The position numbers and the translations under genes were made by a program. Below, one piece after another: positions 22,631 to 30,475 of a stretch of 64,000 nucleotides of DNA (position 1 is the first letter of the stretch; each line of letters begins with the position of its first letter). The stretch spans positions 1 through 64,000 of the forward strand of contig CALAJT010000013.1 in assembly GCA_937923145.1 (NCBI GenBank). Reading direction: 5' to 3'. Source of the DNA: an uncultured Rubritalea sp. (GTDB lineage: Bacteria; Verrucomicrobiota; Verrucomicrobiia; Verrucomicrobiales; Akkermansiaceae). The notes below the pieces were generated by a model. The model had not been told where the DNA came from and did no database searches. It was given only the letters and a program-made list of their open reading frames with translations.

Positions 22631-24238
22631 GTGCTTACTATAAGAAATCTTACAAAAACCGTCGGGGGAAGAACCTTGTTCGAAGAAGCAAAAATGACCA
22701 TTAACTGGGGCGAACGTGTCGCTCTAGTAGGTCCTAATGGTGCGGGGAAATCCACTCTATTTAGAGCTATTTTAGGTGAAGACGAGCCTGACAGTGGAAC
22801 TGCTGAGGTGGATGAATACGCGATAGTGGGCTACCTAGCGCAGGAAGCTGGTGACCCAGGCGTTGAGACTATTTTAGAAATAGCGATCGGGATCACACCT
22901 GAGGTTGCTAAGGCTATCAAGGTGATGCGTGAGTCTGAGAATAATGGCACCACAGATAGTGACGATTTTGCGAATGCACAGGATACTTTTGATGCTGCTA
23001 ATGGCTATGCTCTGGAGCCTAAGGCGAAGAAAATTCTATCAGGACTTGGTTTCAAACAAGAGCAGATGAATGAGCCCGCGAATACTTTTTCTGGTGGTTG
23101 GATCATGCGAGCGAACCTTGCTAGACTTCTAGTCCAAGAGCCAGATCTGCTCATGCTTGATGAGCCTACTAACCACCTTGATTTACTCTCATTGCTATGG
23201 TTGCAGCGCTATCTGATGAACTACCCTGGAGCACTACTCCTCATCTCGCACGACCGTGACTTCATGGATGAAATCATCGAAACTGTCTACGAAATCGATG
23301 AAACAAAGCTCATCTCCTATACAGGTAACTACAGCGATTATGTAGATCAGCGCGAGAAGCGTTATAAGCAGAAAGTTCAGGCTTACCGTGCCGCTCAGAA
23401 AGAGATAGACCGAGTTCAAGAGTTTGTGGATAGATTCCGTGGAGTTGGCTCGAAGGCATCTCAGGTGAATGAGCGTATGAAGACGATTCAAAAGCTGAAA
23501 GACAAGCTCATCAAACCGCAATCCACGCGCAAGGTATTCAAGTTCAATTTCCCCCAACCACCGAGATCTAACCAGATAGTGGCAGAGTTAAAAAAGGTGA
23601 AGCAAGCCTATGGCGATAAGGTAATCTATGATGGTCTAGATCTGATCGTGGAGCGCGGTGATCGCCTCGTTCTAGTAGGACCTAATGGAGCAGGTAAGTC
23701 TACATTGATGAAGATCATCGCTGGTCAACTTGAGATCCAAGGTGGTGAAGTCGAAGTCGGCTATGCTACTAAAATGGGTTACTTCTCTCAGCATAGAGCA
23801 CTAACGATGAATGAATCTAACACAGTTCTTGATGAAGTAATGTCATCTAATGGTGAACTCAGAGAAGATGAAGCTCGCTCTATATTAGGGTCATTCTTAT
23901 TCCGTAAGAACGATGTCATGAAGCGTGTGCGTGTGCTTTCTGGTGGTGAAAAATCGCGTTTGAACCTAGTAAAGTTCCTTGTCGATCCACCTAATTTACT
24001 CCTTATGGATGAGCCTACTACCCACTTGGATATTCTTTCTATTGAGGCACTAGTCTCAGCTCTGAAGCAATACAAGGGAACGCTTGTATTCATCTCACAC
24101 GATGTCCACTTCATCCGGAATCTGGCTGAAACTACTCTACATATCGATACTGGCGTAGTCACTCGTTACACAGGTGGGTATGATTACTTCCTAGAGAAAA
24201 GCGGACTCGATGACGATCGCTCAGCGGTCACTTCATAA
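22631..24238 (+). CDS. ABC-F family ATPase
   Basis: A 535-residue protein with two ABC domains and no membrane segments, of the ABC-F class that acts on ribosomes. Domain 1 has Walker A GPNGAGKST near 35-43, signature FSGGWIMRANLARLL and Walker B LLMLDEPTNHLD. Domain 2 has GPNGAGKST near 357, LSGGEKSRLNLVKFL and LLLMDEPTTHLD. The basic interdomain linker (about 235-300) with KASQVNERMKTIQKL corresponds to the ABC-F arm. It starts with GTG. rlmN begins 14 nt downstream, so two ribosome-related genes are probably co-transcribed. Confidence 0.9.
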   Translation: MLTIRNLTKTVGGRTLFEEAKMTINWGERVALVGPNGAGKSTLFRAILGEDEPDSGTAEVDEYAIVGYLAQEAGDPGVETILEIAIGITPEVAKAIKVMRESENNGTTDSDDFANAQDTFDAANGYALEPKAKKILSGLGFKQEQMNEPANTFSGGWIMRANLARLLVQEPDLLMLDEPTNHLDLLSLLWLQRYLMNYPGALLLISHDRDFMDEIIETVYEIDETKLISYTGNYSDYVDQREKRYKQKVQAYRAAQKEIDRVQEFVDRFRGVGSKASQVNERMKTIQKLKDKLIKPQSTRKVFKFNFPQPPRSNQIVAELKKVKQAYGDKVIYDGLDLIVERGDRLVLVGPNGAGKSTLMKIIAGQLEIQGGEVEVGYATKMGYFSQHRALTMNESNTVLDEVMSSNGELREDEARSILGSFLFRKNDVMKRVRVLSGGEKSRLNLVKFLVDPPNLLLMDEPTTHLDILSIEALVSALKQYKGTLVFISHDVHFIRNLAETTLHIDTGVVTRYTGGYDYFLEKSGLDDDRSAVTS

Positions 24239-27777: not shown

Positions 27778-29712
27778 ATGGCAGCCAAAAAAGCAGTTAA
27801 GAAATCAGCCAAGAAAACGGCAAAAAAATCCACAGCTAAGAAAGCGATTAAAAAAGCAGCTAAGAAGGCACCTAAAAAGGTTGTAACACAGCCAAAGAAA
27901 GTCACTAAGAAAGCGGCTAAAAAGGTAGCAAAGAAATCTGCAATAAAAAAAGTTGCTAAAAATGCACCAGCTAAGAAAACGGCAACTAAAAAGGTCGCTA
28001 AAAAAGCAGCTAAGAAGGCAGTAAAGAAATCTAAGTTAGAAGCCATGCTCGAAGCTGAAGAAGCTGAAAAGGTAAAGCGCGCTAGCAAGAGAAAAGCTCC
28101 CAAGAACAGAATCGACACACCTGAAATGCAGGAGAAAGTGCGCGAACTGATCAAGCTAGCTAAAGAGCAAGACTATCTCACCTACGATGACATCAACGAG
28201 ATCCTACCTAATGATATGGTAGAGCCTGCTGATGTGGAAGCTATCTTAGAGCGACTTCGTTCTATGGAGTTCGACATCATCGATGCCTCTGAAGTGGACC
28301 GTTACCGTACGGCTAAGAAAGATGGTAATGACGCTACAGAGACTAAGACTGAACAGAAACTAGACATTCTAGATGATCCAGTCCGTATGTATCTCAAGCA
28401 GATGGGACAAGTGCCACTTCTCACTCGTGAGCAAGAGGTCGAAATATCTAAGCGTATCGAAGATGCTGAAATCAAAGTACAACACTATCTTCACCGTTTC
28501 GGCTTCGTAGCACAGTCTTACATCAATCTAGCTGAGAATTTAGTGAAAGGGAAAGAGCGTTTTGACAGAGTGATTCTGGATAAGAAGATCGAGAGCAGAG
28601 AGCGCTACATGAAAACGCTGCCTAAACTCTGTGATCAACTCCGTGAATCACACGAAGAAACAGATCTCACATTCCGGAAGCTACATGCCAAGAACCCACG
28701 TGGTAAAGCAAAGCTAGAAGCAGAGTTAGAGAAACAACTTAACAACATTGCTAAGCTTTATGGCAGATTCTACTTCAAGCAGAAAGTAGTAGAAGATTTC
28801 TGTGAAGAGGTAGAAGAATATCAGAAAAAATTATGGAAATTCGCACGCAAGCTTAAGACGAATCCTAAGGACAGTGAGTTTGAGACTAAGATTCGCGAAA
28901 CTCAGCAACTCTCTTGGCATACCGCTGAAGGCTTTGAAGATAATAACAAGGATCTCCGTGCATGGATGAAGAAAGCGTATGGAGCTAAGACTGAAATGGT
29001 CGAAGCGAACCTTCGTCTCGTTATCTCGATTGCTAAGAAATATACAAACCGCGGACTTTCATTCCTCGATCTTATTCAAGAAGGAAACATGGGTCTGATG
29101 AAGGCTGTTGAAAAATTCGAATATCGCCGAGGCTATAAATTCTCAACTTACGCAACATGGTGGATTCGCCAAGCTATCACCCGTTCTATAGCGGATCAGG
29201 CTAGAACGATCCGTATCCCAGTGCACATGATTGAGACCATTAACAAGCTCATGAGAGTGCAAAAGCAACTGGTGCAGGAATATGGTCGTGAACCTACTCC
29301 TGACGAGATCGCAGACGAGATTCACCTACCAGTGGAGCGTGTCCGTGCAGTTCTCAAGATGGCTCAGCAGCCTATTTCACTCCAGGCGCCAGTAGGTGAC
29401 TCTGATGATACATCATTCGGTGACTTCATCGAAGATAAGGCAGCAGACAACCCGATGGAAGAAGCGGGATTCGCGATGCTTAAGGAAAAGATCATTGATG
29501 TTCTGGACACTCTCACCGAGCGTGAGCGCGAGGTGTTAGAGCAACGATTCGGACTTAAAGATGGCTACAGTAGAACGCTAGAAGAAGTGGGTCGACAGTT
29601 TCAGGTCACTCGTGAGCGTATCCGTCAGATCGAAGCCAAAGCACTCCGTAAGATGCGCCACCCGACTCGTATCAGAAAGCTCGAAGGATTCATAGAGCTA
29701 CCGAATATGTAA
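27778..29712 (+). CDS. rpoD: Primary RNA polymerase sigma factor with lysine-rich N-terminal extension
   Basis: A 644-residue housekeeping sigma70. Residues 1-95 are an alanine/lysine-rich extension with AAKKA-type repeats resembling histone H1. Region 1.1 follows ([12 protein letters not shown]), then region 1.2 ([22 protein letters not shown]), the non-conserved insert, region 2 ([39 protein letters not shown]), region 3, and region 4 ([32 protein letters not shown]). The extension is not part of the usual factor and presumably binds DNA non-specifically. A strong terminator follows. Confidence 0.95.
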
Positions 29713-29738
29713 TCGGCTTTAGATTATTTTAAGAAATA

Positions 29739-29772
29739 AAAAGGGCAGTGAGAATAATCTCACTGCCCTTTT
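29739..29772. terminator. Bidirectional terminator between rpoD and the selenoprotein gene
   Basis: A 15-bp perfect stem, AAAAGGGCAGTGAGA (29739-29753) with TCTCACTGCCCTTTT (29758-29772), closes an ATAA loop. T-rich tails on both strands fit termination of rpoD on plus and of the convergent gene on minus. Confidence 0.9.
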
Positions 29773-29809
29773 ATTTTGTAACTTATTAGTTTATCTGTTC
29801 AATTTTAAA

Positions 29810-30475
29810 TTAGAGAGAGGTAGATTCGTCCTTCTTCATATCTACGAACTTAGCGCCAGATGAAGTTATCGCAGCCTTTACCGCTTCTTCATCGATAGCT
29901 ACGTCCTTGTTGAGGTAGAGTTCGATTTTGTTGTTAACGAAAGCTGATGAAACGACATCCATTTTTTCTAAAGCCACACGGACTTTTTCTGCGGTGTCAC
30001 TTCAGCTACCAGTGCCTTTTACATTGATAGTGTAGGCTGCTACTGGTGTAGTAAGCTCTGCACTTTCCATGGATACGAGACCTAATCCCTTAGCTGTGAG
30101 TTGCTTTGTGATTTCTTCCTTGTTGAGCTCAGTACCTGCTTCGACGAAGACGGTAGCTCTCAGACCAGAAAGTTTAACTTTAGTAACTCCAGATTGTGCT
30201 GTTAAGACTGAACTAGTCTTATTTCCCACTCCTCAGCCCTTGCCAGATACTGTGACGATGTAAACTGGTACATTCGTAGCTGTATCTGCTGTATCTGGTG
30301 TTGGTGCTGCTTCTGTTGCTACTTCTGGTTTAGCTGTTTTAGCTGGTGCTTCTGTGGCTGGCTTGTCTGCCTGAGTCGTCGGTGCATCTGCATCTTCTTT
30401 GCATGAAGCAAGGAAGCAGAATGCAGTGCCAAACGATCCAACAGTTACGACTTTAGTGAATTGTTTTAATTTCAT
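29810..30475 (-). CDS. Predicted selenocysteine-containing lipoprotein with two HMA-like domains
   Basis: A single 222-codon frame if the TGA codons 81 (30233-30235) and 158 (30002-30004) are read through; it ends at TAA 29810. An N-terminal signal with lipobox FLASC (C25) is followed by an Ala/Pro/Thr linker to about residue 68. Two tandem domains of about 75 residues follow the beta-alpha-beta-beta-alpha-beta pattern of heavy-metal-associated (HMA) proteins. HMA domains have GMxCxxC after the first strand. Here the blocks read SGKG-U81-GVG and KGTGS-U158-SDT, so each TGA falls where the first Cys belongs, and the second Cys is absent. Both TGAs are followed by SECIS-like hairpins. I infer a periplasmic, outer-membrane-anchored selenoprotein for metal or redox chemistry. 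No sel genes are in the window. Confidence 0.75.
29970..29986 (-). promoter_or_regulatory. SECIS-like hairpin after the second TGA
   Basis: On the transcript AAAGUC pairs with GGCUUU (one G-U pair) around the loop CGUGU. The loop begins 22 nt after UGA codon 158 and has G at its second position, within the usual limits for bacterial SECIS elements (loop about 16-37 nt from UGA, G in the first two loop positions). Confidence 0.5.
30203..30221 (-). promoter_or_regulatory. SECIS-like hairpin after the first TGA
   Basis: On the transcript UAAGACU pairs perfectly with AGUCUUA around the loop AGUUC. The loop begins 19 nt after UGA codon 81 and has G at the second position. Placement and shape match the hairpin after the second TGA although the sequences differ. 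Confidence 0.55.

Follow-up and report, generated by a model that had tools for sequence, protein, structure and literature searches.

A gene on the minus strand of a 64,000-nucleotide stretch of DNA from an uncultured Rubritalea sp. (the window, by which we mean this whole stretch) appears to encode an exported protein with two tandem HMA-type domains, in which both in-frame UGA codons are decoded as selenocysteine (Sec or U); judging from sequence comparison and a structure model, we put the probability of this reading at about 0.93. To our knowledge, the gene is the first described member of its family, which would add a double-Sec entry to the prokaryotic selenoproteome; in this bacterial group, descriptions of selenoproteins are very few.

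Gene, product and surroundings

When TGA was translated as U, the frame extended over 221 codons from ATG to TAA, and its sole interruptions were the TGA triplets at codons 81 and 158 (Table 1), in agreement with the preliminary description of this DNA, which named no strand. The product consists, in this order, of a lipoprotein signal (lipobox LASC, residues 22–25), an Ala/Thr/Pro-rich linker and two domains of ~75 residues. At the third residue after each TGA, where the second Cys of an HMA-type motif had been reported as replaced, we likewise read Gly for U81 (UGVG) and Thr for U158 (USDT). The designation of the product as a lipoprotein applies to the window copy and several relatives, whereas other relatives have an ordinary-looking signal peptide.

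Table 1. Coordinates of the candidate selenoprotein gene and associated features in the window
Feature	Positions	Strand	Basis
Gene for a predicted 221-aa exported lipoprotein with two Sec	29810..30475	-	ATG 30475, TAA 29812-29810; translation and homologues
Predicted signal peptide, lipobox LAS-C, Cys25 (codon 30403-30401)	30401..30475	-	Read from translation
UGA codon 81, putative Sec in domain 1	30233..30235	-	Translation, homologue alignment
UGA codon 158, putative Sec in domain 2	30002..30004	-	Translation, homologue alignment
HMA-like domain 1, residues 68-142, beta-alpha-beta-beta-alpha-beta	30050..30274	-	AlphaFold model, VIA-align
HMA-like domain 2, residues 145-217, beta-alpha-beta-beta-alpha-beta	29825..30043	-	AlphaFold model, VIA-align, profile alignment
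Candidate SECIS hairpin 1, AAGACU-AGUUC-AGUCUU, loop start 18 nt past UGA	30204..30220	-	Covariation
Candidate SECIS hairpin 2, AAAGUC-CGUGU-GGCUUU, loop start 21 nt past UGA	29970..29986	-	Covariation
Strong hairpin with T/A flanks between the selenoprotein gene and the convergent sigma-factor gene	29738..29775	.	Fold, -25.4 kcal/mol

The gene is flanked by a convergent gene for a sigma-70-type factor and by a divergent amidohydrolase gene, and the strong hairpin on the sigma-factor side is likely a bidirectional terminator. The sigma-70-type factor (window 27778–29712) carries a very long, histone H1-like N-terminal extension that is rich in Lys and Ala (AAKKA repeats). Among the stop codons of 19 ORFs around the gene, we counted 2 TGA, 11 TAA and 6 TAG, and none of the 18 neighbouring ORFs reads through TGA. 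Since TGA ends two of these 19 ORFs, it is an ordinary stop in the window genome and the code is unchanged, as had been stated beforehand, although the ABC-F ATPase gene at 22631–24238 ends in TAA. If TGA coded for Trp, Gly or some other amino acid in this lineage, the open frame would look similar, but such a code is highly improbable in view of this use of TGA as a stop, the absence of TGA readthrough in the neighbouring ORFs, the complete Sec system that co-occurs with the gene and the SECIS-like hairpin after each TGA (see below).

Conservation of the two in-frame TGA codons

A search of 58 relatives yielded 19 genes including the window's own, all of which have exactly two in-frame TGA codons. 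The order-wide search of 387 Verrucomicrobiales genomes, in which strong homologues were defined by E below 1e-40, gave 50 matches, and every one of them had exactly two TGA and zero other stops, which goes far beyond what chance would give; no homologue at this threshold in the 387 genomes was without the two TGA. In an alignment of 18 members, two of the eight invariant columns are the Sec positions, which lie 76–77 residues apart with one Sec per domain. Differences from the nearest homologue pile up at third codon positions past both UGA codons (45 versus 19 and 19; 29 versus 19 and 12). The scattered stops or ordinary residues that would have spoken against a selenoprotein were thus absent from the homologues, 50/50 of which keep both UGA codons.

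It could still be proposed that TGA is a true stop here or that the gene is decaying, with an 80-residue lipopeptide as the functional product and the rest a pseudogene or a sequencing artefact. As TGA ends two of the 19 nearby ORFs, some termination at UGA81 must take place, chiefly under selenium scarcity; as an explanation of the gene, however, this proposal has a negligible probability, because all 50 homologues are open past both TGA with no other stop, third-codon-position bias continues after both UGA, and the SECIS hairpins covary.

The preliminary description had suggested looking for Cys at both positions in homologues; all homologues carry Sec instead. No Cys-containing orthologue at the Sec positions was found among the 50, and CxxC was found only in more distant HMA proteins, one of them in the window genome itself. 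The usual support from Sec/Cys pairs is therefore missing for this family; such pairs are commonly adduced for a selenoprotein but are not required. Since no Cys orthologue appeared in our searches, unlike the situation for most selenoproteins, selenium may be indispensable to this family rather than an upgrade. Ordinary Cys is also nearly absent beside Sec: in 30 of 33 genes there is none from 20 residues before the first Sec onward, so that selenium itself is probably the working part. One of the remaining three genes has Cys only past the true stop. Two members, L050 and L063, are natural variants of the family with one core Cys each (GCGU just before the second Sec, and TTAC, respectively).

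The family appears to be confined to Verrucomicrobiales in the searches run. In a phylum-wide sample of 388 genomes, matches at 1e-8 occurred only in the window genome and in two genomes of the same taxonomic family. Breadth beyond Verrucomicrobiota was assessed by one pattern-limited scan of contigs with a narrower alignment, which returned five loci, all from Verrucomicrobiota and most of them titled Verrucomicrobiales, Akkermansiaceae or Roseibacillus; no relatives were found in plasmid records, in viral contigs or outside Verrucomicrobiota. Gene finders have probably truncated or missed members of the family. One of its hosts, Roseibacillus persicicus (strain KCTC 12988, locus L040), is cultured, which makes the family testable.

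A covarying hairpin after each UGA

The selenoprotein reading of the gene is strongly supported. Each UGA has its own covarying hairpin, in line with what a bacterial SECIS element should look like. In 33 genes with 66 sites, which share descent and are not independent events, a stem of six base pairs with a five-base loop lies at a fixed offset from UGA (loop at 18 nt for site 1 and at 21 nt for site 2), typically AAGGCC-CGUGC-GGCCUU or AAAGCC-AGUUC-GGCUUU. Two of the stem pairs join a third codon position with another third codon position: at pair 3, 31 sites have G-C, 33 have A-U and two are exceptions, and pair 6 is C-G, U-A or G-C in all 66 sites with no exception. Compensatory stem changes recur at both sites and across genera, and in one lineage the stem has been swapped for AGAUUG-CGAUCU. 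In the loop, all 66 sites have G at position 2 and 64 of them have U at position 3; Ser codons in the loop are AGU then UC(N), as the hairpin demands. All six pairs are formed at 51 of the 66 sites, compared with 1.9 expected (maximum 6) when synonymous codons were resampled.

In loop and spacing, the hairpins follow the rules of a published bacterial SECIS model (PMC13188914), and the limit of this model for minimum free energy (−7.5) is reached at 52/66 sites, including both sites of the window gene (−8.7 and −10.3). At window site 1, where the full-length minimum free energy is no better than the synonymous null, the evidence is the conserved 17-nt hairpin and not total energy. The homologues, the SECIS covariation and the use of TGA as a stop led us to reject a pseudogene, a sequencing error and a reassigned code.

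Selenocysteine machinery of the hosts

The preliminary description had proposed a genome search for selA, selB, selD and tRNA-Sec, and all four are present in the window genome (selA, 502 bits; selB, 285 bits over cut-off; selD, 375 bits; tRNA-Sec, 60.6 bits versus a gathering score of 47). The selD gene (L111; contig C27:12128–13054) also contains an in-frame TGA, within the well-known CGGU motif, so that SelD itself would be a selenoprotein. It shares its contig with selB, at a distance of a few kilobases, whereas selA was located on C9 and tRNA-Sec on C18. Across the 387 Verrucomicrobiales genomes, selA was found in 47 of the 50 family-positive genomes versus 71 of the 337 others (Fisher 2e-24). 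The three family-positive genomes without a selA match (G607, G727 and G039) each have selB over cut-off, and a selA missed in a draft genome is therefore the likely cause; every family host (n = 50) has selA or selB.

Domain architecture and predicted fold

AlphaFold, given an alignment of six sequences as input, predicted two beta-alpha-beta-beta-alpha-beta domains, mostly at a pLDDT of about 90. Each domain, ferredoxin-like in fold, gave a VIA Z of about 10 (HMA7, 10.7; CopZ, 10.4) with an rmsd of about 2 Å. When the family profile was compared with the tandem domains of CopA (7e-9), U was aligned over the first Cys of GMxCxxC; at i+3, where the second Cys would stand, domain 1 has Ala, Gly or Ser and domain 2 mostly Thr. 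The tandem HMA-like interpretation offered earlier, with Sec on the position of the first Cys, is thus upheld by both the profile comparison and the predicted fold, and the two-ligand GMxCxxC motif of HMA domains is not retained, with Sec at the first position and Cys absent from the second. In direct comparison with Pfam PF00403 at an E limit of 1, 11 of 18 members matched; the best E was 1.2e-7, L040 was over the gathering score, and the window protein alone gave no match by sequence. Superposition on CopA over both domains by Foldseek gave an rmsd of 14–15 Å; the packing of the model differs from that of CopA.

Relation to known families

The N-terminal tandem HMA domains of CopA/ATP7B and the metallochaperones CopZ/MerP share the domain fold (VIA Z 9–10.7, rmsd about 2 Å), and their first GMxCxxC Cys aligns with the Sec of the window family. 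The latter differs from them in having no second Cys, in having Sec for Cys and in being a free-standing exported (lipo)protein with no ATPase. The nearest described family, the metal-binding (seleno)protein NF041115 (UxxU_metal_bind, listed as 'putative mercuric reductase'; PMC13188914), likewise has an HMA-type domain whose metal loop contains Sec, but it has two ligands (UxxU, two Sec) in one domain, whereas the window family has a lone Sec with no Cys partner in each tandem domain. This model matched 15 of the 18 members of the window family, but weakly (best E 1.2e-6) and far below the 95-bit cut-off, and the window protein itself was not among the matches listed. The Sec-containing cation-transporting P-type ATPase and the MerT/CopZ fusion selenoprotein NF045683 also have Sec in a soft-metal site of the CxxC type, but they are membrane transporters or fusions in which the second ligand is kept (UxxC for the ATPase in the catalogue; PMC13188914).

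A catalogue from 2026 covers 119 families and subfamilies of prokaryotic selenoproteins; UxxU NF041115, the P-type ATPase with UxxC and a protein of the MerT type are in it, and a tandem HMA family with a lone Sec per domain is absent (PMC13188914). NCBIfam release 20 contains no model that the window family is shown to pass, and the literature on HMA or Verrucomicrobia selenoproteins yielded general catalogues only. Because it is absent from both the 119-family catalogue and NCBIfam release 20, we call this a new family of the HMA selenoprotein kind.

Possible roles of the two selenocysteines

Judging from the sequence comparisons, SelB and tRNA-Sec decode each UGA as Sec, steered by its own downstream hairpin. 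The product would be exported and, in this species, lipidated, and it is predicted to fold into a tandem pair of HMA-type domains; in either domain a single Sec takes the place of the first ligand in what was once a GMxCxxC loop, and the second Cys is gone. As Cys is absent from 30 of 33 genes in the part that begins shortly before the first Sec, no soft ligands or redox groups would be available besides the two Sec, Met and the lipid-bearing Cys. Being usually the sole selenol or thiol groups of the mature core, they may well act as a pair, and we infer that paired action of the two selenolates is their simplest use. We tentatively favour, at somewhat under even odds, a clamp outside the inner membrane, in which a soft metal ion such as Hg(II), Cu(I), Ag(I) or Cd(II) would be bound between the domains by a pair of selenolates, each domain contributing one. 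Points against such a clamp are that no conserved metal-resistance genes adjoin the family and that each domain is without the second HMA ligand. At a similarly cautious level, the family could be described as Sec-only, its two domains forming one bis-selenolate metal site between them (or a diselenide switch) on the outer side of the cytoplasmic membrane. If true, the HMA metallochaperone site would here have a selenium-specific counterpart of which no cysteine form exists. Two Sec without a Cys partner in metal-type domains also offer a clean test of the role of a selenolate at a soft-metal site.

The loss of the second ligand from each domain (Ala, Gly or Ser at i+3 in one and mostly Thr in the other) is also what might be expected if the two Sec formed a reversible diselenide or selenenyl intermediates, in a periplasmic redox or peroxide-scavenging protein for which the HMA fold is a mere scaffold. 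They are nearly always the sole selenol or thiol groups, and redox proteins make up the majority of catalogued selenoproteins (PMC13188914). We nevertheless consider this role less likely than the clamp, because metal binding is typical of HMA domains, because the protein has no thioredoxin-type or peroxidase motif, and because no redox partner was seen in the conserved neighbourhood.

It is also known that a metal can be shared by HMA domains that face each other across an interface, as exemplified among the VIA matches by the HAH1-Cd-MNK1 adduct (3cjk). The two domains might hence work independently, each lone Sec combining with a ligand of another molecule (a homodimer, a P-type ATPase or an efflux partner) in metal handover, and the failure of the two modelled domains to superpose together on known two-domain HMA proteins (Foldseek rmsd 14–15) would be in keeping with this. 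Such independence is less likely still, however, since the strict retention of both Sec in 50/50 homologues suggests a joint need and no conserved partner gene lies nearby. In the neighbourhood comparison, no conserved metal operon or metal-resistance genes were found near the homologues, and different genes adjoin them elsewhere; the gene context does not discriminate among a metal clamp, a diselenide and metal handover.

Other HMA selenoproteins in these genomes

The same bacteria have other HMA selenoproteins (UxxxC/UxxxC, UxxxC and UxxC), which are likewise exported and have UGA in the same loop with a hairpin after it; they differ from the window family in keeping a Cys after Sec, and their profile similarity to it is weak (E 1e-4 to 1e-6). 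The UxxxC spacing, one residue longer than CxxC, is apparently uncatalogued. Single-domain exported UxxxC proteins occur in several relatives (L074, L075, L081, L083, L084, L085, L088, L089 and L090). Another small HMA-like family has Sec/Cys pairs (L076:1780–2133, minus; L078 from 1472, plus; L077:1614–1982, plus), with CGGC in G025, a genome with no selA match, and UGGC or UAGC in selA genomes.

The window genome itself carries a second double-Sec tandem HMA protein (L071:1979–2542, minus; contig C47:5478–6041) with UASGC and UAGGC, both of the UxxxC type; a hairpin with an AGGCU loop follows either UGA, the DNA of the two domains hardly differs around the sites, and the match to NF041115 (78.9 bits) is under the 95-bit cut-off. 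A Cys version on contig C48 (L072:1893–2486, plus), with tandem CDSC and CGSC HMA domains, passes NF041115 (109 bits). Together with the window gene, tandem HMA proteins of the CxxC, UxxxC and lone-U types are thus found in one genome.
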